NCBI GenBank assembly: GCA_030447305.1
Contig: JAUJPC010000006.1
Coordinates: 1 to 64,000 of the forward strand
Length of the DNA stretch: 64,000 nt
DNA from: Actinomycetota bacterium
Lineage (GTDB): Bacteria > Actinomycetota > CADDZG01 > JAHWKV01
Direction of reading: 5' to 3'
The translations under genes and the position numbers were made by a program. Position 1 is the first letter of the stretch, and each line of letters begins with the position of its first letter. Shown here piece by piece: positions 47,765-62,455 of the stretch. The notes below the pieces were generated by a model, which saw nothing but the letters and a program-made list of their open reading frames with translations, was not told the origin of the DNA and did no database searches.

Positions 47765-48174
47765 GCCGCGGCGAGGAGGGTCAGGTCACCGCCTTCGTGG
47801 TCGGTACGGTGCTGGCGCTTTTTCTTCTGGGCGGGTTGGTGATCGACGGAGGCTACACCCTCGCCGCCCGCCGCCGGGCGTTCGACGAGGCCAGCGCCGC
47901 GGCCAGGGCGGGTGCCCAGGCGCTGGACGTCCAAGAGTTCCGATCATCGGGCCGGCACCTCCTCGATCCGGCGGCGGCGGAGCGGGGCGCCCGGTCCTTC
48001 CTGGCCGCCACCGGCCAACGGGGGAGTGTCGAAGTTACCGGCGATCGCGTGGCGGTGGAGGTGGTCGTATCCCAACCGATGGCGATGCTGCGAATCGTCG
48101 GTTTGAGTCAGATCACGGTCACCGGTAGGGGAAAGGCCAGGCTGGCCGGAGCCTGCGGGGCGGGGGCTCCGTGA
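47761..48174 (+). CDS. TadG-like protein
   Basis: 137 residues. EEGQVTAFVVGTVLALFLLG and GLVIDGGYTLAARRRAFDEA match the TadG-like Flp-secretion family start, in which a helix is followed by a D-G-G turn. TadG proper is longer with a von Willebrand domain; this one is short, as in many actinobacterial clusters. It overlaps both neighbours. Confidence 0.76.
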   Translation: MSRGEEGQVTAFVVGTVLALFLLGGLVIDGGYTLAARRRAFDEASAAARAGAQALDVQEFRSSGRHLLDPAAAERGARSFLAATGQRGSVEVTGDRVAVEVVVSQPMAMLRIVGLSQITVTGRGKARLAGACGAGAP

Positions 48175-50791
48175 AGATTCCCACACCACTTCGCCGGGGC
48201 GCAGCCACACTCGGACTCGTCGCCCTCGGCCTCGGCGTGCCGCTCGCGCTTGCGCTTGCAGTGGGATGGCCCCTTCCCACGGACCTTCCGAGCGCCGACC
48301 GGCTGAGGGAAGCGCTGACCGAAGGGTGGGTGCTCGATCCCAGTTTCGTGATCAAGGGTCTCGCGATCCTCTGCTGGCTGGCGTGGGCGGAGATCGCCGT
48401 CTGCATGGTCGTCGAGGTGAAGGCGGCGGTCACCGGGGCCGCGGCGCCGAGGATCCGCTTTGCCGGTCCGCTGCAGCCCTTGGTGGCGAAGCTGGTGGCG
48501 GCATCGATGGTCTCGGTGCTCGTCTTCGGAAGCCGGGCGGTGGCGGTCGCCCATCCGCCGCTGAGGGCGGCGGTGGCGATGTACCGGCAAGCGACGCCCT
48601 TGCCTTCCGTGCCCGAGCCCGCCAGGAGCGTGACCGAGTCGGAGGACCCGGCGGGACAGCCACCGGCTCAGATCACGGTTCGCCCCCGCGACAATCTTTG
48701 GGATCTGGCCGAGGCGCACCTCGGAGATCCCTTCCGGTGGCGGGAGATCTTCGAGCTTAACCGAGGTCGCCTCCAGCCGGACGGCCGCAGCCTCACCGAT
48801 CCCTCCCTCATCCGGCCCGGATGGGTCCTCGACCTTCCCGACTCGAAACCGCACCCCCCGCAGACTGCGGGGGGAGCGACCGGTCAAGCGGATGCTCAGG
48901 AGCAACCTACCCCCGTCGGACCGACCCCTAATGCTGCCGAGGACCGAAATGCGGCATCGTCGGAGGACGAAGAACGGGCGCCGGAGCAAAGCCGGCCCGA
49001 CCGCCGGCCGGTCTCGATCCACCTTCCCGGCGGGTCGGTCGTTTCGATCGGCCTCGCGCTGGGTGTCGCGTCCGCCCTGGCCGCGATTCGCCTCCACCGG
49101 CGCCGCAACTACCGGCCGTCCCCGCCTGCTCCGGCCGAACTGACGCTCGAAGCTGATCAAGACGGGACGTCTCGTGCCTTGCTTGGTGCGGCGCAAGCCG
49201 CTTCAGTTAGCGAATCAAGCGAGAACGCACCCTTCCCGTTCCGTGGGCTGAGTGATCAAGGCTCGGGCAGACTCGTGATTGGGGAGCGGGAAGGCCGTGA
49301 GTTCGACGTCGACTTGTCTTCGCTCGGAGGGCTCGCCCTTACGGGGAACGGGGCTTATGCGGTGGCGCGCTCCGTCGTTACTACCGCACTGGCCGAAGGG
49401 AACAGCGGCGTCTTCGAGGTGGTAATGACGAAGACGACAGCCGAACGGCTGGTGCCCGGCGTCCGGCCTTTCGAGGGTCTCCGCTTCGCCGCGAGCTCAG
49501 GCGAGCTGATGCGCATCGCCGAGGCGGAGCTGCTCCACCGGACCCGGCGTCTGGCCGATGTTGAGGATCTTGGGGCCTTCGGAGAGGCGACCGGGGAGCC
49601 AATTCCGACGCTCCTGGTTGTGGTGGATCGGCTCGACGAAGGAGAACGATCGTGGATCACCACCATAGCGGGCCTCGGAAGAAGGCTGGGAGTCACTCCG
49701 ATCTCTATCGGATCCGACCTGGGCTTCGACGGTCGGATCGAAGTCGATGACGAGGGGAAGGCTGATGGCAAGCTGGCCAACGCCCCCGGAATTCTGGCCG
49801 ACCTCACCCTCCACAGGCTCATGGAGGAGGACGGGCGAACGATCCTCAAGACGTTGGCGGCCGCCACGAATCTGGCGGAGGAGCTGCCCCTCGAGAAGGC
49901 TCGGGCGCCGGTTCCGTCCAGCGATGGCCCGGCCATGCCGGTTCCGAGCGTTGAACCGGGCGGGCTGATCAAGGTTCAGCTTCTCGGTGCCTACCGGGTA
50001 GAGATAGCCGGCCAGGAGGTGAGGAAGGGCTTAAGGTCCAGCGCCCGGGAGCTGCTAGCGTTCTATCTGCTGCAGCCCCACGGGGCGACGCTGGAAAGGG
50101 CAGTCGACACCCTGTGGCCGGATATGGAGCTTTCCAAGGCATCGGACAAGTTCTGGGCCGGCGTCAGCAATCTACGTTCGCTGGTGAGAGAAACGACCGG
50201 CGAGGAACACAGGGTCCTTCAGAAGAACTTGGGGGGTTACGTTATCGAACCAGGGTTGTTCGAGGTCGACGTCTGGCGCCTTCAAACGGGGCTCTCGGCC
50301 CTCAAGAACTCGGAATTCGAAGTTGAGCGACACGCGGCCGATGTTCTGGCATGTTATGGAGGAGATCTTCTTGATGGCACTATTACGAATGGGGGGAACC
50401 GTGGCGGGAGGAACTTAGGCGAAAGACGTTGGATGCGTGCGTTCGCTTGGCCGAGCTAGCGGAGCTGAACGGCGATTTCGAAATTTCTCTCGACACTCTC
50501 GAAAAGGGCATCGCTATCGATCCTTATGCAGAGAACCTTTATCAACGAGCAATCAAGCTGTTAGTTTCGCTGCGCAGGTCCGCGGTCGCCGGACAGCTGT
50601 TCCAGCAGCTAAGAACGCGCCTGAATGACCTCGACTTGGAACCTGACCCAGAAACCGTCAGATTGTTGAAGCAAACGTTGAGTTCAGCGGTAGTTGGCTC
50701 TGTAAGCGATCCCAATAGTCGTCGTACGTTTTCCGCCACCTCTAGGGAGAATTTCAAAATGGAAGAATGCCGACAAATTCAGATTCTTTAG
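48171..50791 (+). CDS. Membrane LysM-BTAD regulatory protein, one frameshift
   Basis: About 870 residues across two frames. N-terminal helices (LGLVALGLGVPLALALAVGW, GLAILCWLAWAEIAVCMVVE) precede a LysM domain (ITVRPRDNLWDLAEAHLGDP, RWREIFELNRGRLQPDGR) for peptidoglycan binding. A further helix, a long middle region and a C-terminal bacterial transcriptional-activator (BTAD) domain follow (RSSARELLAFYLLQPHGATL, LERAVDTLWPDMELSKASDK). Near 50380 one base must be skipped, and the BTAD helices continue (RRKTLDACVRLAELAELNGD, GKGIAIDPYAENLYQ-like repeats). It could link wall status to gene control, or its BTAD part may be a protein-binding scaffold. It ends the Tad operon. Confidence 0.75.
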
Positions 50792-51855
50792 ATCTGCCTG
50801 GTCTCCAAATCTCCCGGACCGGGTTCAAAGTTGGCGACTTTCTCGCCTGGCAACGCGCTGGGTCGCTCACACTAAGCCCTAGCTTCCAAAGGCGTCCAGT
50901 TTGGCCAACAAGAGCCAAGTCGTACTTGATCGATACGATAATCCGGGGCTATCCGATGCCGGTGATCTTCTTGCGGGAACTAACCCCCGCGGAACCCACG
51001 CTCGATCCAATAAGGGAAGTCGTCGATGGTCAGCAGCGGATTAGAACCCTCATTTCTTACGTCACTCCACACTTATTAAAGGATTTCAAACCAGAAAGAG
51101 ACAGTTTCACGATGCTGCGATCTCATAACCGCCTGCTCGCAGGCAAGCGATTTAAAGATCTGCCTAGCGATATTCAGCGGCGCATAACTTCGTATGAGTT
51201 CAGCGTGGACGTGTTCCCTTCTTACACCGACGACAGGGACATCCTTCAGATTTTTGCTCGAATGAATTCCACGGGGGTGAAGTTAAACGCGCAGGAACTG
51301 CGCAACGCCGAATTCATTGGTGAGTTCAAGAACGCCATGTACGAACTGGCTGCCGAGCAGCTCCCGAGATGGCGCTCATGGTCACTTTTCACCGAAGACG
51401 AAATTGCCAGGATGGACGAGGTTGAATTAACCAGCGAGCTTGCCGACCTTATCTTGCATGGCGTAGCCGGAAAATCTAAGCCGCGCTTAGACCGCCTCTA
51501 CCGAAAGTATGAAGAAGAGTTCTCCGCGGGTGAGGAGGTGGGTCGACGGTTTCGAATTGTGATGGATCAGTTGGACGCCAGGTTGGGCGACGCGCTCCCA
51601 ACGATGCAATTTCGTCGCCGTCCTCTTTTTTACAGTCTCTTCGGAGCCTTTTACGACAAGATATTCGGGATAGGTTCCCCGATTGACGGTAAGGCTGCTA
51701 CACCACCGCCAAAAAGTTGGATCGAATGGGTTCTCAGGGCGAGTGACGAAATCGCGAACCATCGCGCTCCAGATCATATTCAAGAGAGCACGGAACGCCG
51801 TACTACCCATCTAGCTTCGCGAAAGGCTTTAGTCGGTTATCTGCTAGGCGAATAG
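50767..51855 (+). CDS. DUF262 (ParB-fold) domain protein
   Basis: 362 residues. Typical blocks: VGDFLAWQRAGSLTLSPSFQ, RRPVWPTRAKSYLIDTIIRG, YPMPVIFLRE, the motif VVDGQQRIRTLISYV (residues 85-99) and LQIFARMNSTGVKLNAQELR. DUF262 folds like ParB/sulfiredoxin and forms the N-terminal half of GmrSD type IV restriction enzymes, where it binds or hydrolyses NTP. Here no C-terminal DUF1524 nuclease is fused. The next gene encodes a HEPN-type protein and abuts it exactly. The DNA looks less GC-rich than the Tad operon, which suggests a separate origin. Confidence 0.85.
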   Translation: MPTNSDSLDLPGLQISRTGFKVGDFLAWQRAGSLTLSPSFQRRPVWPTRAKSYLIDTIIRGYPMPVIFLRELTPAEPTLDPIREVVDGQQRIRTLISYVTPHLLKDFKPERDSFTMLRSHNRLLAGKRFKDLPSDIQRRITSYEFSVDVFPSYTDDRDILQIFARMNSTGVKLNAQELRNAEFIGEFKNAMYELAAEQLPRWRSWSLFTEDEIARMDEVELTSELADLILHGVAGKSKPRLDRLYRKYEEEFSAGEEVGRRFRIVMDQLDARLGDALPTMQFRRRPLFYSLFGAFYDKIFGIGSPIDGKAATPPPKSWIEWVLRASDEIANHRAPDHIQESTERRTTHLASRKALVGYLLGE

Positions 51856-52470
51856 GTGCCGAGGGCTCGGCGCGATCTTCCACGAGAGTTTCTAAAGCGA
51901 ATGGCACGCCTAGAACGTACACGCGTCCGAGTGGAGGATCTTCATGCTAAGTCACTTCTCAACTCTCGGGACTTGGACGTGGTGTACGAAGGACTATTTC
52001 TTGAGTGTGTGACTGCTTTCGAAACGTTTCTTGAAACTCTCTTTTTCGCCACTGTTATGGGGCAGCTCGATTTCCCCGTGAGGCGTGTGAAATCGCGAAT
52101 TGAGGTTCGATCTTCACAAGTTCTTAGGGTCATCGTTAAAGGCGATCGGCAGTTCGTGGACTGGCTGCCCTATGAACATACCGAGCGGAGGGCCAAGATG
52201 TACTTGCGGCAGGGTCGGCCTTTTTCGGACTTAACTGATGCGCAAACGTCCCTAATCCAACGGGTTGTCTGGACGAGAAATGCGATCGCTCATCAAAGTC
52301 GGGAGGCAAGGCAAAAGTTTGATCGCAATGTTCTTGGCTCTACTCCGCTGCTACCACGGGAAAGAAGCCCTGCCGGGTTCCTTAGGTCACAGCCCAGAGG
52401 TCCTGGATCGACTCAGTTCCAACTGATGACGAACGAACTTATCCGCATCTGCTGGGATCTCACGAATTAA
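51856..52470 (+). CDS. HEPN-domain protein, partner of DUF262
   Basis: 204 residues, GTG directly after the DUF262 stop. The motif RNAIAH (Arg141-x4-His146) in VVWTRNAIAHQSREARQKF is the catalytic pattern of HEPN ribonucleases. Other blocks (LFLECVTAFETFLETLFFAT, YEHTERRAKMYLRQGRPFSD) resemble the MAE_28990/MAE_18760 HEPN group that is often paired with DUF262. As a pair they may form a toxin-antitoxin or anti-phage unit; activity is inferred. Confidence 0.78.
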   Translation: MPRARRDLPREFLKRMARLERTRVRVEDLHAKSLLNSRDLDVVYEGLFLECVTAFETFLETLFFATVMGQLDFPVRRVKSRIEVRSSQVLRVIVKGDRQFVDWLPYEHTERRAKMYLRQGRPFSDLTDAQTSLIQRVVWTRNAIAHQSREARQKFDRNVLGSTPLLPRERSPAGFLRSQPRGPGSTQFQLMTNELIRICWDLTN

Positions 52471-52778: not shown

Positions 52779-53921
<1,143 letters not shown>

Positions 53922-54010
53922 ACGCCCCTTCCGGGCGCGAAGCGACGCTGCGTCTTACGCTTGGCGCCGTCGGCAGGACGGCGAGTACGGCATGGCAGAC
54001 GGCCGAGAGG

Positions 54011-54060: not shown

Positions 54061-56739
54061 TTGGACGAAAAGGAACGACAGACACGGAAGCAACGCATCG
54101 ACCCCCGACTGAAGCAGGCGGGTTGGTCGGTCGTTCCGTACAGCGGCGCTGACCTCAACCTCTACAAAACGGCTGGCGTCGAGGAGTTCCCTACTGCGAA
54201 CGGCCCCGCAGACTATGCCCTCTGCGACAACGGCACCATTCTCGGAGCGGTCGAAGCCAAGAAGGTCACAACGGGCGCGCAGGGCGTCCTGACGCAGGCG
54301 CAGCGGTACTCGCAGGGCTTCACTGGCATCCCGGTCGACTACGGCGACGGCTGCCACGTTCCGTTCCTGTACTCCACCAACGGCGAGGTCATCTGGTTCC
54401 AGGACATCCGTCATCCGCTCAACCGCTCGCACAAGATCACTGGTTTCCACACGCCATCGGCCTTGCACGAGTTGCTAGGACGGGACCGGGAAGCGTCGCT
54501 AGCCAAACTGCCGGGCATCCCGTATCACGGCCTTCTGCGGGATTACCAGATTGAGTGTCACGAGGTCGTTGAGGAAGCCATCGCCAAACGCAAGCAAAAG
54601 ATGCTCGTCACGATGGCGACCGGCACCGGCAAGACGCTAACCATGGTTAGTCAGGTCTACCGGCTGATGAAGTCCGGCACAGCCCGGCGCATCCTCTTCC
54701 TGGTCGACCGCCGCGCGCTCGCCGCCCAAGCGGTCCGCTCGTTCGCGTCGTTCGAGGCCGAGCCGGGCCTCAAGTTCGACAAGCTCTACGAGGTCTACAG
54801 CCAGCGCTTCAAGAAGGAGGACTTCGAGGAGGGCGAAGCGTTCGACCCCAAGGTGCTCCCCAACAAGTACCTGACTGACCCGCAGCCCGGTCACGCTTTC
54901 GTCTACGTCTGCACCATCCAGCGGATGGCGATGAACCTGTTCGGCAAGGACGCCGGCTTCGACATCGGAGACGAGACCAAGGACGACGACGCCGACAAGC
55001 TGGACATCCCCATCCACGCCTTCGATCTCATTATCGCTGACGAGTGCCACCGTGGTTACTCCCGGAAGGAGCAGTCGACCTGGCGTGACACGCTCGACTA
55101 CTTCGACGCCACCAAGATTGGGCTAACAGCCACGCCGGCGGCTCACACGGTCGCCTACTTCAAGCAAGTCGTCTACCGCTACGACTACGAGCGAGCTGTC
55201 GCCGAAGGCCACCTCGTTGACTACAACGTCGTCAACATCAAGTCGAACGTCCGGCTGAACGGCGTCTTCCTCAAGGAGGGCGAGAGCGTGTCGGAGGTCG
55301 ACACCCATACCGGCGTTGAGCAGCTCGACCTTCTTGAAGACGAGCGTGAGTTCGCCACGACCGAGGTCGAAAAGAAAATCACGGCGCCGGACTCCAACCG
55401 CAAGATTCTCGAAGAGATTCAGAGATACGCCGTCGAGCACGAGCAGGAGACCGGGCGCTTTCCGAAGACACTTATCTTCGCCGACAACGACCTGCCGCAT
55501 ACCTCGCACGCCGACCAACTCGTCGACCTCGCTCGCGACATCTTCGGCCGCGGTGACTCGTTCGTCTCGAAAATCACCGGTCGTGTTGACCGACCGCTGC
55601 AACGCATCCGGGAATTCCGCAACCGGCCCAACCCTGGCATCACCGTGACCGTCGACCTGCTCTCGACCGGCGTCGACATCCCGGACCTTGAGTTCATCGT
55701 CTTCGTGCGGCCGGTGAGGTCCCGCATCCTGTTCGAGCAGATGCTCGGTCGCGGTACTCGCAAGGGTGAGAAGTATCCCGACAAGTCGCATTTCGTTGTC
55801 TTCGATTGCTTCGACGGCACGCTCTTCGAGTACTTCCGCAACGCCACCGGCATCACTGCGGAGGCGCCCGAGGCGGATGCCCGGCCTATAGCGGACATCA
55901 TCGAGGACATCTACAAGAACAAGGATCGCGAGTACAACGTCCGCCGTCTGGTCAAGCGGCTGCTCCGCATCGACAAGCAGATGTCGGGCGACGCTCGCGA
56001 ACTGTTCGGAGCCTTCATCCCGAACGGTGATGTAGGCGCCTTCGCTGAGGCGCTCCCGACGATGCTCAACCAGTCCTTCGCCGAGCTGATGAAGACGCTG
56101 CGGGACAAGAGCTTTCAGGAGTTGCTCCTCAACTACCCCCGGCCACCTCGCGTTTTCCTCGTCGCTCACGAGGCGCAGGACACGGTGACTTCCGAGTACC
56201 TCATCAAGGGCACGACCGGTAAGGAGTACAAGCCCGAGGAGTACCTCATGGCGTTCGAACGCTTCGTGCAGGAGAACGCGAGCACCATCGACGCCCTGTC
56301 CATCCTGTTGTCGAAGCCAGCTAGGTGGGGCACCGAAGCGCTCAAAGGGCTGCGCGAAGCACTAACCAAGGCGCCGGAACACTTCACCGAAGCGAACCTG
56401 CAACGCGCCTTCGAGGCGAAGCACCACAAGGCGCTCGCCGACATCATTTCGATGGTCAAACGAGCGGCGATCGAGTCGTCGCCGCTCCTCACCGCTGACG
56501 AACGTGTGACCGCAGCGGTCGAGACGGTCGTCGCCGACCGCACCCTGACCGCCGACCAGATGAAGTGGCTCGACTACATCCGACAGCACTTAGTGGCGAA
56601 CCTCTCCATCGACCGCGACGACTTCGAGAACGTGCCCGTGCTGCTCAACCGCGGGGGCTGGGGCAAGGCCAACAAAGTCTTCGACGGCGAACTCGAAGAG
56701 CTGCTCGCTGAACTCAACAAGGAACTGGTGGCTGCCTGA
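54061..56739 (+). CDS. hsdR: Type I restriction enzyme R subunit
   Basis: 892 residues, TTG start. The N-terminal nuclease domain has the PD-(D/E)xK pattern (NGPADYALCDNGTILGAVEA, then KK). The translocase follows: Walker A LVTMATGTGKTLTMV (about 187-192), DECHRGYS (327-330), LTATPAAHTV (355-359) and later helicase motifs (TGVDIPDLEFIVFVRPVRSR, then FEQMLGRGTR). The C-terminal part is EcoEI-like. HsdR cuts DNA after ATP-driven translocation when the HsdM/HsdS complex meets unmethylated sites. It is intact, the first gene of the operon, and its stop overlaps hsdM (TGATG). Confidence 0.95.
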   Translation: MDEKERQTRKQRIDPRLKQAGWSVVPYSGADLNLYKTAGVEEFPTANGPADYALCDNGTILGAVEAKKVTTGAQGVLTQAQRYSQGFTGIPVDYGDGCHVPFLYSTNGEVIWFQDIRHPLNRSHKITGFHTPSALHELLGRDREASLAKLPGIPYHGLLRDYQIECHEVVEEAIAKRKQKMLVTMATGTGKTLTMVSQVYRLMKSGTARRILFLVDRRALAAQAVRSFASFEAEPGLKFDKLYEVYSQRFKKEDFEEGEAFDPKVLPNKYLTDPQPGHAFVYVCTIQRMAMNLFGKDAGFDIGDETKDDDADKLDIPIHAFDLIIADECHRGYSRKEQSTWRDTLDYFDATKIGLTATPAAHTVAYFKQVVYRYDYERAVAEGHLVDYNVVNIKSNVRLNGVFLKEGESVSEVDTHTGVEQLDLLEDEREFATTEVEKKITAPDSNRKILEEIQRYAVEHEQETGRFPKTLIFADNDLPHTSHADQLVDLARDIFGRGDSFVSKITGRVDRPLQRIREFRNRPNPGITVTVDLLSTGVDIPDLEFIVFVRPVRSRILFEQMLGRGTRKGEKYPDKSHFVVFDCFDGTLFEYFRNATGITAEAPEADARPIADIIEDIYKNKDREYNVRRLVKRLLRIDKQMSGDARELFGAFIPNGDVGAFAEALPTMLNQSFAELMKTLRDKSFQELLLNYPRPPRVFLVAHEAQDTVTSEYLIKGTTGKEYKPEEYLMAFERFVQENASTIDALSILLSKPARWGTEALKGLREALTKAPEHFTEANLQRAFEAKHHKALADIISMVKRAAIESSPLLTADERVTAAVETVVADRTLTADQMKWLDYIRQHLVANLSIDRDDFENVPVLLNRGGWGKANKVFDGELEELLAELNKELVAA

Positions 56740-58166
56740 TGACGGACGTCGTTTCGAAGCTCTGGGGCTTTTGCCACACCCTCCGCCATGACGGCGTGGA
56801 CTACGGCGACTACATCGAGCAAATCACCTACCTGTTGTTCCTCAAGATGGCCGACGAGCGCGGCCTTGAGCTACCCGAGGACACCGACTGGGCCTACCTC
56901 CGCAAGCAGAGCGGCACCGAGTTGCTGGACGCCTACGTCGAGGCGCTACGCCTCCTCGGCAAGCAGCCGGGCATTCTCGGCGACATATTCAGCGGCGCCC
57001 AGTCGCGCTTCACCAACCCGGTCAATCTCAAGAAGCTCATCGGTCTCATCGACGAGACCGAGTGGACGTCGCTCGACGTCGACGTCAAGGCTGCCGCGTT
57101 CGAGGGCCTACTCGAGAAGGCCGCTGCCGAAGGGAAGAAGGGGGCTGGCCAGTACTTCACGCCCCGGCTGTTCATCCAAGCGATGGTCCGCTGCATCCAG
57201 CCCGACCCGCGGGTAAGCAAGGACTTCGCCATCGGAGACCCGGCGTGCGGGACCGGCGGCTTCCTCGTATCGGCGTACGAGTGGCTGCTCGAACAGACCG
57301 GCGGCGCCCTGGATCGTGACATCGCCAAGAGAGTCCGCACGCAGACTTACTTCGGGCAGGAACTTGTCCCACGGCCAAGGCGCTTGGCGCTGATGAACCT
57401 CTATCTCCACCAGGTCGAGCCGCACATCAAACTCGGCGACTCCATCTACGAGACGCCGGACGCCAAGCGATACGACGTCGTGTTGACCAACCCGCCGTTC
57501 GGAACTCGCGGAGCGAACGCCGTCCCGGACCGGGACGACTTCGTCATCGGCACTAGTAACAAACAGCTCAACTTTCTTCAGCACGTGCTGACGACTCTCA
57601 AGCCTGGTGGGCGCGCCGCAGTCGTTGTGCCCGACAACGTCCTGTTCGCCGACCAGGCCGGCGACGTCTTCAAGGTTCTGATGGAGGACTGCGACGTACA
57701 TACCGTCCTTCGTTGCCCACGCGGCACGTTCAGCCCCTACACCCAGGGCACGAAGACGAACGTTCTCTTCTTCACGAAGGGGAGACCAACAGCTACGACG
57801 TGGATCTACGACGCTCGCGCGAACATCCCGAAGATCACGAAGAAGTCACGGCCCCTCACGGAAGCGCACTTCGCCGAGTTTGAACGCTGCTTCGGGGTCG
57901 ACCCCCACGGCCAAGCCAAACGCTCCGAGTCCGACTCCCCCGGAGGACGCTGGCGAAGCTTCTCAGTCGAGGACGTGATCGCCCGTCATTACAAGCTCGA
58001 TAGCTTCAAGTGGCTCCGCGATGACGAGGCTGACGATCTCGACGAGCTGCCCGAGCCCGAGGAACTCCTCACAGACGCCGCCGAGGAATTGCGTCTCGCG
58101 CTCGATGACATCGGGGACTTGCATCGGCTCCTTGAGGAGACGGCCGGAGGCAACGGTGAGACATGA
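56739..58166 (+). CDS. hsdM: Type I DNA methyltransferase M subunit
   Basis: 475 residues. HsdM N-terminal domain (WGFCHTLRHDGVDYGDYIEQ, then YLLFLKMADERGLELP), AdoMet motif I DPACGTGGFLVSAYEWL (residue 167 on) and motif IV LTNPPFGTRG (NPPF, 251-254) place it with N6-adenine methyltransferases. It modifies one adenine in each half of the target and, with HsdS, forms the core that HsdR joins. The gene overlaps hsdR and hsdS at its ends. No defect is visible. Confidence 0.95.
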   Translation: MTDVVSKLWGFCHTLRHDGVDYGDYIEQITYLLFLKMADERGLELPEDTDWAYLRKQSGTELLDAYVEALRLLGKQPGILGDIFSGAQSRFTNPVNLKKLIGLIDETEWTSLDVDVKAAAFEGLLEKAAAEGKKGAGQYFTPRLFIQAMVRCIQPDPRVSKDFAIGDPACGTGGFLVSAYEWLLEQTGGALDRDIAKRVRTQTYFGQELVPRPRRLALMNLYLHQVEPHIKLGDSIYETPDAKRYDVVLTNPPFGTRGANAVPDRDDFVIGTSNKQLNFLQHVLTTLKPGGRAAVVVPDNVLFADQAGDVFKVLMEDCDVHTVLRCPRGTFSPYTQGTKTNVLFFTKGRPTATTWIYDARANIPKITKKSRPLTEAHFAEFERCFGVDPHGQAKRSESDSPGGRWRSFSVEDVIARHYKLDSFKWLRDDEADDLDELPEPEELLTDAAEELRLALDDIGDLHRLLEETAGGNGET

Positions 58167-59514
58167 CTGGCCGGTAGTGCCTCTCGGCGCGCTCCTAACC
58201 GACGTCCAGCCCGGCTTCGCCTCTGGCAAGCACAACTCGGAGGGCAGCGGCCTACCTCATCTGCGGCCGATGAACGTCAGTACTGGCGGCGCTATCGACC
58301 GCTCGACGATGAAGTATGTCGATCCTGGCCTGGCCGACAAGCCAGAGCGTCGTCTCAAGGCAGGCGACGTTCTGTTCAACAACACGAACAGCCCTGAGCT
58401 AGTCGGGAAGACCGCGGTATTTCAGGACGACGACGAGCCGGCGTTCTCGAATCACATGACGCGCATCCGTTGCGACAGCGCTCGCCTTGACGCTCGCTAC
58501 CTCGCGTCACGACTCCACCACGCGTGGAGAGAGGGTTGGTTCGCCGCGCACTGCAACAACCATGTGTCGCAGGCGAGCATCGGTCGTGATGTTCTGAAGT
58601 CATTCCCAATCGAGCTTCCACCCGTCGAAGTTCAGCGAGCAATTGCCGACACCCTGGAGCAAGCGTCGACGCTCGCTGTTAGCGCCTCATCACACCTGGC
58701 GAAGGCTCAGCAGCAGCTCCAGGCTGCACGGCGCGCCGTCCTCGCAGCGGCGTGCGTAGGGCGATTGACCGCCGACTGGCGGGAGGCGCACCCCGACACA
58801 CTGTCGCTGGAGGATGCGCTTGCCCAACTGCAACCTAAGACCAGACGGCGAACGCGCGAGACGCAGGTTGAGCTATCACTTCCGGAGCTTCCGGCCACGT
58901 TCACCCTGGCAACGTTGGGCGACGTTGCGGAAATACTTGAGTACGGGACGTCGAAGCGATGTGATGCCACACGGGACACCGGAGTGCCGGTTCTACGCAT
59001 GGCCAATATCCAAGGCGGTCAACTCGACCTCAGCAATCTCAAGTACTGCGAGCGAGACGAGGAACTCGATCGACTAATGCTCGACCAGGGCGACCTCCTG
59101 TTCAACCGGACCAATAGCCCCGAGCTGGTGGGCAAGAGCGCCGTCTTCGCAGCTGACGAACCAATGAGTTTTGCCTCGTATCTCATCCGCGTTCGCTTCA
59201 TGGCTGAGTTCGCCCTTCCCGAGTTTGTGAACTACTGGCTCAACTCAGCATGGGGTCGAGAGTGGGCGCAGCTTGTGAAGACCGACGGCGTAAGCCAATC
59301 CAACATCAACGGAACCAAGCTCGCTCTCATGCCGCTGCCTCTGCCGCCGCTAGAGGAGCAACGGGTCATCGTCGAACGTGCGTCGACTGCCTTGGCGGCC
59401 GCGGAGCGCACGCACCACAGGGCGGCTGCGGGAGAGCGGATGGTCGAGAGTGCGCGGCAGGCGGTCTTCGCAAAGGCCTTCCGAGGCGAGCTCGTCAACG
59501 CAGAATCGCCATGA
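58156..59514 (+). CDS. hsdS: Type I specificity subunit with two target-recognition domains
   Basis: 452 residues from GTG 58156, which overlaps the hsdM end by 11 bases. Two similar halves are visible. Each has a target domain ending in a conserved block (DVLFNNTNSPELVGKTAVFQ and DLLFNRTNSPELVGKSAVFA) followed by a helical spacer (PPVEVQRAIADTLEQASTLA and PPLEEQRVIVERASTALAAA). The layout gives a bipartite asymmetric recognition sequence, which cannot be deduced. The last bases overlap the start of the fourth gene (ATG 59511). Confidence 0.93.
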   Translation: MRHDWPVVPLGALLTDVQPGFASGKHNSEGSGLPHLRPMNVSTGGAIDRSTMKYVDPGLADKPERRLKAGDVLFNNTNSPELVGKTAVFQDDDEPAFSNHMTRIRCDSARLDARYLASRLHHAWREGWFAAHCNNHVSQASIGRDVLKSFPIELPPVEVQRAIADTLEQASTLAVSASSHLAKAQQQLQAARRAVLAAACVGRLTADWREAHPDTLSLEDALAQLQPKTRRRTRETQVELSLPELPATFTLATLGDVAEILEYGTSKRCDATRDTGVPVLRMANIQGGQLDLSNLKYCERDEELDRLMLDQGDLLFNRTNSPELVGKSAVFAADEPMSFASYLIRVRFMAEFALPEFVNYWLNSAWGREWAQLVKTDGVSQSNINGTKLALMPLPLPPLEEQRVIVERASTALAAAERTHHRAAAGERMVESARQAVFAKAFRGELVNAESP

Positions 59515-61315
59515 CGCTCGGACCGTTCGACATCACTGCCGAGCGCATCCAGGCACCAGGCCAGAGTTTCACACCGTTCGGGAATCGCCTGTTAGTCGTA
59601 CAAGTCAGTGCATCTCGCGTCCACGGGCACCAGCTCGCCATCAACTCGAACGAGACGACACCCGACGGCGGTGTCGACGCTGCCCTTCGAAACGGCGTGG
59701 GCACCGATTTCATGCCACCGGCGACTCGGCATGGCAATTCAAGCGCACCGGCATCGGGGTCACAAGCCTGCGCTGCTGAGTTCGAGAACGCGGCCTGGGC
59801 ACACGAGTTTATCCGCTCCGGCGGTGCCTACATCATGGTCATTGGGACGCCATATCCAGACAACCTCATCGAGGCACGCCGTCGAAAGATCGCCGAGAAG
59901 GCAGTTGAGTTGGACCTGCTTGCAGGCGACGACCCTGACCGCATCCGCGTATACGACGCGAACCGGCTAGCTCGGTGGGCGTCCCGATTTCCAGCGGTCG
60001 CCGTGAGCCAGCTCTCTGGCGGGCAAGGACTCGTCGCCGTCGACTTCGACAGTGGTCGAGCGGCTTTACCTACACGACATCCTGGGTGCCTGACAATGAA
60101 CGCAACGCGGCCGCCGAATCCATCCGGGCGCAGGTGGCGTCGCAGGGTCAAGCTGAGGTCCGAATCCAAGGCGACATCCGGCATCGGAAAGACCAGGCTC
60201 GTCATGGAGGCGCTCCGAACGCCGGAGTTGCAGCCACTTGTGGCATACGTCGCGGATGCCAATGCCGTGAGCGGAGAGCTGCTGACCCACCTTGTCAGCG
60301 AGGGCCGCACCGCCGTGCTGGTCGTCGATGAGTGTCCTGTGAGCGGCACATCAAGCTTGTCGAGCAGTTGCCGGCCGACCCGACGATCAAGCTCATCACG
60401 ATCGGAGACCTCGGAGCCGCCCTCTCACGCGGACCGGTTATCGGGGTCCAAGCAATCGACTCTGATGCCGCCGATGAGTTTCTCAAGATCAACTTCTCGA
60501 CTTTGTCGCCAGAAGCTCGCCGATTCGTCGCCGATCACAGCCAAGGCAACCCTCGTTGGATGATTGCGCTAGCCGGGAAGGTTGCCGGGGCATCGGATGC
60601 GCAGGCGGCGGACCTCATCGCCTTAAACGACATCGAACAGTTCATCGCAACGCTGTTGCCGGAGGGGCGGGGTTTTTTTGCGCGGCGGCACTGGCGCTCC
60701 TTGAGCGAGTGGGCTGGGGCGGCGACCTGCGTTATCAGGTCGACCTGTTGGTCTCATTCGCCGGAGTCACGATGGAAGAGATGGAGACCGCTGCGTCCGA
60801 CCTTTCGCGGCGGGGTCTTCTCAACCGCACCGGCCGGTACCGCGCAGTCTCTCCGCATCCACTCGCCGTCTACCTCGCCGCCGAGGCATGGCGCGAACTC
60901 GCCGAGCGGGTGGTCGATGAGTTCATACCGCAGCTCGACGAAGACATGGCTCTGGCCTTCTTCCGCCGAATCGCCGACCTCGGATGCTTCCAACCCGCCC
61001 GATCCGTACTCCCTCGACTGTTGTCATCGGGCGGCCCATTTAGCTCGCTCTCCGACCTGGAAACGAGCGGGCTTGGCCGTGTCCTGACGCAGCTGGCGAA
61101 TTGTGACGCCCGAAGAGGTCGCGTTGCATCTTCGCGAACTCATTGAGCAGGTCGATCCAGAGACGCTCGCCTCACAACGCAACAGTCGACGGGATCTCGT
61201 CTGGACGCTGGAGAAGCTGGCGTGGCACAGCAGGACGTTCGAAACCCCGGCCGACAGTCTCCTCAAACTCGCGGTTGCCGAGAACGAGACATACGCGAAC
61301 AACGCCACGGGGCGT
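59511..61315 (+). pseudogene. Nuclease-STAND NTPase gene (Avs-like), frameshifted and truncated
   Basis: ATG 59511 overlaps the hsdS stop. Joined across about four indels, the product begins with an Mrr-like PD-(D/E)xK region (LLVVQVSASRVHGHQLAINS, TTPDGGVDAALRN, then WQFKR in another frame). A P-loop follows (SGIGKTRLVMEALRTP), then AVLVVDEC as Walker B, IGDLGAALSRGPVIGVQAID, SDLSRRGLLNRTGRYRAVSP with a winged-helix look, and helical repeats. The order matches antiviral STAND (Avs-type) proteins, whose nuclease is triggered by phage proteins. The frame runs into IS copy 2 (NETYANNATG then IS sequence), so the C-terminal sensor is lost. Confidence 0.6.
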
Positions 61316-62455
61316 GGGGTGCCAAAACTGAGATCGCATCGTCACGCCGCTCTTCGATACTCGTGAATCAGGCCGCCAAGGATGTCGTGGCGCTCTAGGC
61401 GGACCGGTTGGTCAGGCGCCGAAGAAAGAGCTGAAAGTCGTTCCGGCGTCTCCAATTCAAGGCTTCGGTGAGGCCGCTCCTGATTAATGGCGAATGTAGG
61501 TCTGAAGGACCTGATACAGGTGTCGCCGGCCGGGAACCAGGATCCAGTCTAGGCATTCGCTTTTAACGGTAAGCACCCACCGCTCGGCGAAGGCGTTAGC
61601 GTTCGGCGCCCCCACCGGGGTTCTTAAGATTCTGGTGCCCTGGGCTTCAAAGACCTGGTTGAACCCACCCCAGAACTTGCTGTCCCGGTCGTGGATCAAA
61701 ACCTCGGCGGCGCAGAAGCGGCAGGAGCGTCGATTGATCGGTTCCTCGCCTGCTGAGTGACCCACGCCGAACCGGGGTGGGCAGTCACGCCGCCCAGGTG
61801 AACCCGCCTGGTGGCCAGCTCGATAAAAGAAAAGGATGTACAAGGTCTTCAGCCGAACCGTCTCGACGGTGAAGAAGTCGCAGGCCAAGGTGCCATGGGC
61901 TTGGGCTCGCAGGAACTGAGACCAGCTCGGTCCGCTCCTTCGGGGGGCCGGCCCGATCCCATGGGCCTGAATAACCCTGCGGATCGAGGTGGCGCCGACC
62001 CTCACTCCTACCTTTTGCAGCTCACCTTGGATCCTTAGGTACCCCAGCGGGGATTCTCCTGGCCAAGCGCACGATCAGTGCAACCGTTTCAGGGGGCAGT
62101 GGCCGCCTTCCAGGCTTGCTTTCCTTCTTATATCTCCACTTGCGCTTGACCAGGTGGAGGTGCCAGCGGAGCAGGGTGTGCGGGGTAACCATGAAGCTGC
62201 CCCAGCGTTGCCTGGGCAGGATCCGGCTGAGCGCGGCCAGAAAGAGACGGTCAGTTGGCCGCAGATCTGGCCGAGCGACCTGGCGGCGCAGGATCTTCAG
62301 CTGGTGACGCAAGACGACGATCTCGAGGTCGATGGAGTTCTGATTGCGGTGGGGGAGCAGCCGAAGGAGTTCGGAGCAGCAAGTACAGGATCGATAGGAA
62401 CATGGGCTGCGATGCTATTGGAGCGTGATTGAGCCGCAAAACCGGGTTTTGTACC
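61316..62455 (-). mobile_element. IS copy 2, inverted relative to copy 1
   Basis: The left end GGGGTGCCAAAACT (61316-61329) matches copy 1; the right end is altered (GGTACAAAACCCGG on the complementary strand). The coding parts match copy 1 almost base for base ([58 protein letters not shown]). It shares copy 1's indels in homopolymer runs but lacks an extra C found only in copy 1. It cuts off the STAND gene on one side and the membrane-protein gene on the other. Confidence 0.85.

Follow-up and report, generated by a model that had tools for sequence, protein, structure and literature searches.

Several described systems bear on the locus considered here. PD-lambda systems were named in a functional screen in E. 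coli, according to the available part of PMC9519451, and the accessible portion of PMC10952713 tables PD-lambda-4 under P-loop NTPase. Avs proteins bind phage proteins – the titles of PDB entries pair Avs3 with terminase and Avs4 with portal – and follow the order nuclease, STAND NTPase and helical sensor. Type I restriction–modification (R-M) operons, for their part, can house further defence genes. As described in the sections available from PMC3506569, PrrC, found with PrrI, is an anticodon nuclease encoded in an hsd operon and bound to the Hsd complex. Experimentally tested cases are DarTG2, located between hsdS and hsdR (PMC12255303), and TgvAB, located within a type I operon (PMC11411939), as far as the excerpts of these two papers go. 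Searches of open-licence papers turned up no description of an hsd operon that carries a STAND gene of the PD-Lambda-4 type.

The window analysed here – the whole stretch of 64,000 nucleotides from an Actinomycetota genome – holds a gene that brings these themes together: a member of a known antiphage family, now decayed and clipped by an IS, in a type of site known for guests. It resembles PD-Lambda-4 in that the remnant falls into the same family by an ordered profile match, yet differs from it in lacking the C-terminal half and in being the guest of a type I operon. With DarTG2 and TgvAB it shares the position of an independent defence gene seated in such an operon, although the effectors differ. 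With PrrC it shares a nuclease effector encoded among hsd genes; whereas PrrC cuts anticodons and is attached to Hsd, the present family has a DNA-nuclease fold, a sensor of its own and, often, no detectable hsdS in the genome.

On the forward strand, hsdR (54061–56739; 892 aa) and hsdM (56739–58166; 475 aa) are both open, the stop of the former being overlapped by the start of the latter. Their products match the Pfam models EcoEI_R_C (4.1e-38), ResIII (1.4e-33) and HSDR_N (9.7e-7), and N6_Mtase (2.5e-59) and HsdM_N (4.6e-11), respectively. The open frame of hsdS, on the same strand at 58021–59514, matches Methylase_S in two stretches (4.2e-16); its true start is probably near 58160, the earlier part of the frame overlapping hsdM. 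These three co-directional genes, with their family domains, constitute a type I R-M system, and the nuclease–STAND gene follows in the same direction, again with overlapping ends: the stop of hsdS (59512–59514) and the ATG of the next gene (59511) share the letters ATGA. This four-base overlap supports the operon membership proposed in the initial annotation.

Unlike the open hsdRMS genes, the fourth gene (59511–61312, forward strand) comprises about 598 codons distributed over three frames, with the C-terminal half absent. Its parts, all on the forward strand and all with approximate limits, are an N-terminal, frame-broken PD-(D/E)xK nuclease region (59511–60060), identified in the window reading by residues invariant in relatives; a STAND NTPase region (60061–60660), identified by translation, alignment and the fold of an intact relative; and a winged helix with the first helical repeats (60661–61312), identified by alignment to the intact relative L026 and by its structural model. 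In the translation of the window, DGGVDA lies at about 59664–59681, WQFK, in a different frame, at about 59732–59743, the P-loop TSGIGKTR at about 60171–60197 and the Walker B motif VLVVDEC at about 60312–60335, each of them where it had first been noticed. The winged helix and helical repeats that had been claimed along with these motifs are present in the L026 model but are not seen in the window itself.

Scanned singly, four frame pieces match the PADLOC family PD-Lambda-4_A in order, at profile positions 43–316 (E 2.4e-9), 339–399 (E 0.0097), 444–560 (E 2.4e-5) and 566–640 (E 0.013); since separate pieces line up on one profile, the reading as a gene is more than chance. The joined read-through matches positions 35–630 of 1283 (E 2.3e-35), that is, the N-terminal half of the profile. 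When the own genome was searched with PD-Lambda-4_A, three of the four piece locations were recovered and nothing else, the C-terminal half being missing from the genome by this search, so that the window copy is the remnant of a family member and not a working one.

A frame-tolerant alignment places residues 1–603 of L026 (1196 aa, from an Acidimicrobiales assembly) on 59511–61312; 280/593 positions are identical, and the alignment needs seven frame changes but crosses no in-frame stop. As the same aligner introduces four changes into the open hsdR, none into hsdM or hsdS, and 0, 2 and 2 into three intact relatives, seven is an upper estimate and some of the changes may be noise; the stops in the window translation prove several of them real. 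At the position of the conserved helix Glu (L026 position 31), the window reads Gln.

The gene is not only frame-broken but also truncated, because it ends at an IS copy that the initial annotation did not mention (61309–62451, reverse strand; a broken rve-type transposase). A second copy, inverted and 94% identical to the first, lies upstream of hsdR (52786–53928, forward strand; rve_3 2.9e-14); the transposase frames of both are broken, and the pair brackets hsdRMS and the STAND remnant. With its frames broken and its sensor half gone where the IS begins, the window copy is non-functional as read. The possibility of a simple IS insertion was rejected: an own-genome search with the C-terminal half of L026, which carried no positive control, located the remainder of the gene neither past the IS nor elsewhere, and by eye no target-site repeat is seen around the IS copies. 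Even without such repeats, the inverted pair might be a composite transposon. Thirteen further IS-related places occur in the genome (66–81% identity, mostly partial); the contig of the window, 217 kb long, holds six of these, which points to an accessory region rich in IS remains.

What the complete protein looks like can be judged from intact relatives, which are single proteins, mostly of 1190–1300 residues. The structural model of L026, built with 37 others (38 of 80 loci in the alignment; mean pLDDT 87.9), comprises an alpha/beta domain at residues 1–165, the NTPase to about 380, a winged helix to about 450 and helices to the end. In Foldseek its best match is Avs3 (8dgc_A, E 1.6e-10), followed by SAMD9, a TPR-STAND protein, Apaf-1 and Avs5 filaments, although whole-chain TM-scores against Avs3 are low (0.21/0.15). 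VIA-align superposes residues 165–490 on NLR resistosomes, Avs5 and AAA+ proteins with Z about 11. The P-loop and Walker B motif in the window, together with this fold in the intact relative, identify the STAND NTPase; the helical C-terminus of the STAND architecture is lost from the window copy. The nuclease–STAND fusion read from the broken frames is thus upheld by the PADLOC match, the L026 model and its fold matches, the intact protein being predicted to consist of a PD-(D/E)xK nuclease followed by a winged-helix STAND NTPase and a long helical solenoid. Two archaeal loci depart from the single-chain layout. In Haloarcula marina (L010, 11935–15712) the family is split into two overlapping genes, one for an ATP-binding protein of 346 aa and the other for a protein of 914 aa; in an archaeal assembly (L080, 8337–11059) the match begins at profile position 220, in the NTPase part, and is preceded by a separate, overlapping ORF of 206 aa, with hsdM about 6 kb upstream.

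For the nuclease domain, the first 184 residues were modelled separately with 27 of the 80 loci aligned (pLDDT 91.0). D52, G54, D56, Q77 and K79 are invariant in 27/27 aligned relatives, and a helix Glu, E31, is present in 32/38 aligned rows. Foldseek yields weak matches, the best being EcoO109I (E 0.056), and a PDB search with a profile of the domain gave no sequence match. VIA-align pairs the domain with Can2 (Z 9.3, rmsd 3.2, 124 residues) and Avs4 (Z 7.5, rmsd 4.6, 150 residues), and also with MspJI, FokI, SgrAI, EcoO109I and other PD-(D/E)xK enzymes. The GGxD...QxK motif and the fold together make this a PD-(D/E)xK nuclease. Of the ‘Mrr-like’ label attached to it at the outset, the motif part stands; the fold itself comes closest to Can2, with Avs4 and type II enzymes next.

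At the level of sequence families, PD-Lambda-4_A was the sole family matched in the PADLOC scans. The PADLOC library holds Avs models, none of which matched. No Pfam model reached its cut-off on the family members scanned, AAA_16, NB-ARC and nSTAND appearing below threshold only, and five tested members matched no NCBIfam model. The profile searches that had been proposed as a check therefore return a defence family, PD-Lambda-4_A, but leave Pfam STAND matches sub-threshold and no Avs-named profile; a PADLOC label by itself proves no function. The suggested kinship with Avs proteins accordingly holds in fold – Avs3 is the best PDB match and the nuclease domain resembles that of Avs4 – but not in sequence family. 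The family also differs from Avs3 and Avs4 in length, with about 1200 aa compared with 2028 and 1534 residues, respectively, in the listed chains. A partner gene B, hinted at by the _A suffix alone, did not appear by name in the listed families (25 of 266) for 48 upstream neighbours.

Within the family, the actinobacterial relatives tested (L026, L027, L031 and L032) match PD-Lambda-4_A only to about position 690–825, whereas L008, L009, L011 and L035 match it over nearly the whole length. This difference implies that the sensor end varies between branches and that, unlike in PD-Lambda-4 itself, the close relatives of the window copy carry another sensor; judging from the sequences, the sensor end of the actinobacterial branch (L026–L034) has apparently either diverged or been exchanged.

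The survey of relatives used a three-sequence alignment, as an eight-sequence one proved too diverse for the genome scan, and kept 80 of 108 loci, a sample that leans toward relatives with the two peptide patterns of the profile. Among viral contigs, a scan with a single protein gave 0 matches and the three-sequence profile four; no phage records matching the plasmid homologues were found. Across 396 genomes of the phylum, one PADLOC profile search gave one match at E 1e-6, and a second gave none, in a run that had no positive control and missed the own genome too.

Intact STAND genes of the family lie within a type I operon at three of the 80 homologous loci: L031 (HsdM-unknown-HsdS-HsdR-STAND, with a 2-bp gap before STAND), L061 (HsdR-HsdS-unknown-DUF5131-HsdM-STAND, 54 bp after HsdM) and L071 (HsdM-PDC-M04A-PDC-M04B-HsdS-20 bp-STAND-HsdR, with a 1-bp overlap with HsdR). 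The last of these occupies the hsdS–hsdR slot that the available text reports for DarTG2. At L071, too, the PADLOC candidate pair PDC-M04A/B lies between hsdM and hsdS (802–1948), which makes two guests in one type I operon. At two further loci, 18 bp separate the STAND gene from a directly preceding type IIG gene (L047) or type III Mod gene (L097), and in L030, L064, L080 and L094 hsd genes lie at a distance from the homologue. A linkage count with the Hsd queries of the window alone overlooked HsdR at L031 as well as the L071 genes; added queries recover part of these. The repeated hsd adjacency anticipated by the initial annotation thus exists, in three type I operons with intact homologues, but only in 3/80 loci. 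The R-M linkage of intact relatives is real but loose, and this repeated, loose linkage is the useful result: hsd operons, along with single type IIG and type III cases, now count among the sites that carry NLR-like bacterial alarm proteins.

Methylase_S was found in 6/11 homologue-bearing genomes searched – hand-picked from the 80 loci, with completeness figures not given – and in 9/14 control genomes; it was not detected in the genomes of L026, the closest relative, L028, L029, L032 and L033. In 14 plasmid neighbourhoods (three unannotated), the homologue sits amid other defence and plasmid genes, mostly solitary; upstream of the homologue on one cyanobacterial plasmid lies a type I R gene. 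In a tree with 77 rows – the 69 loci, out of 80, whose products have ≥1100 residues, together with seven plasmid homologues and the window reading – the type I-linked rows fall on separate branches and, judged by the starred branches, require at least two changes. The window groups with the unlinked L026, L031 with unlinked Microbacteriaceae and L071 with L075; the branch of L061 is long and its placement unsure. As 5/11 tested genomes lack detectable hsdS, the data do not support a general rule of dependence on type I systems or of control by them, and the early suggestion that an alarm protein of this kind might be controlled by the accompanying type I system is not borne out, plasmid homologues also being mostly solitary.

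In our assessment, the fourth gene is probably a solitary, Avs-like PD-Lambda-4_A antiphage gene that became the guest of a type I operon and is inactive here, and an Avs-like abortive-infection nuclease is the most likely role for such a guest. The intact protein would be one chain of about 1190–1300 residues, with nuclease, STAND NTPase/winged helix and helical solenoid. By analogy with the folds of Avs3 and Avs4, the solenoid would bind a phage component, the NTPase would then oligomerise the protein and the grouped nuclease domains would cut DNA without sequence choice; the infected cell would presumably be killed or stalled. Sharing the operon may ensure common expression with hsdRMS and provide a second line of defence behind restriction, a role for which contact with Hsd subunits would not be needed. 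In this genome, the sensor half would have been lost through an IS-associated rearrangement, with hsdRMS staying open.

A tighter arrangement on the model of PrrC, in which Hsd silences the intact protein or the protein senses failure of Hsd and goes off upon a block or alleviation of restriction, has the four-base overlap with hsdS in its favour, as well as the location of the gene within, or immediately behind, R-M genes at L031, L047, L061, L071 and L097 and the precedent of PrrC with PrrI (in the available text of PMC3506569). Upstream neighbours point the same way when spacing is tight. Among the 72/80 loci with at least 500 bp upstream, 12 have a co-directional ORF of at least 100 aa that ends no more than 60 bp from the start or overlaps it, and R-M genes account for 5/12 of these, compared with at least 4 of 74 randomly drawn local neighbours matching N6_Mtase or Methylase_S (Fisher p 0.002, with thresholds chosen after the data were seen and the background a lower bound, some of the 74 belonging to the hsd operons described above). 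Over all 48 hand-picked same-strand upstream neighbours, however, the excess (6/48, one of them Mrr-type, vs 4/74, the background again a lower bound) is not significant (p 0.15). Three R-M types and differing operon orders are involved, the linkage at 3/80 type I loci is not the regular one expected of a PrrC-like effector, and both the genomes without a Methylase_S match, that of L026 among them, and the mostly solitary annotated plasmid homologues argue against coupling, which we regard as improbable. The broader proposal that a subset of PD-Lambda-4-type STAND genes has been recruited repeatedly into several R-M types as a second-stage alarm upon restriction failure, the switch taking input from the R-M enzyme or from its DNA products, seems to us just as improbable. 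The same lack of R-M linkage at most of the 80 loci, with a local R-M background near homologues that is already at least 4 of 74, would suit a chance neighbour, defence genes being prone to cluster and a STAND gene having landed behind hsdS without common expression or function. Operon-like spacings – the overlap here, the gap at L031 and the overlap with hsdR at L071 – run counter to such an accident, and we consider it unlikely, if somewhat less so than coupling. The question whether restriction and abortive infection are linked in their workings or simply expressed together can be put to the test with the intact systems of L031, L061 and L071, though not with the window copy.

A further question concerns the state of the gene itself rather than its role. 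Its frame breaks could be assembly errors in a living gene that is merely truncated, or that exists intact on unassembled DNA. Zero in-frame stops in 593 aligned codons are unusual for an old pseudogene and leave room for assembly indels; small indels also distinguish the two IS copies, in two instances as a changed length of a single-base run, and the genome is a draft of 7 contigs. Set against this, the adjoining hsdR, hsdM and hsdS have open frames, as do most genes between 17 and 56 kb, the helix Glu has been replaced by Gln, and indels do not explain the truncation at the IS, beyond which the C-terminal half was not found in the search run without positive control. Decay and assembly error gave no distinguishable pattern in the open-frame statistics of stretches of the genome. 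We find this explanation doubtful, though less so than either rival account of the operon.

Upstream of the operon, the window contains further genes of some interest. At 50767–52470 (forward strand), a GmrSD_N (DUF262) protein matches the PADLOC families NsnA (1.2e-37) and PD-T4-2_A (1.8e-21), and is followed without a gap by a 204-aa protein with HEPN matches below threshold only; this pair, just upstream of the IS pair, is possibly another two-gene defence system. Before it, at 48171–50791 on the forward strand, lies a gene whose product we take to be a LysM/BTAD-like protein, with an apparent frame change near 50459, continuation in the ORF at 50429–50791 and a possible further break.
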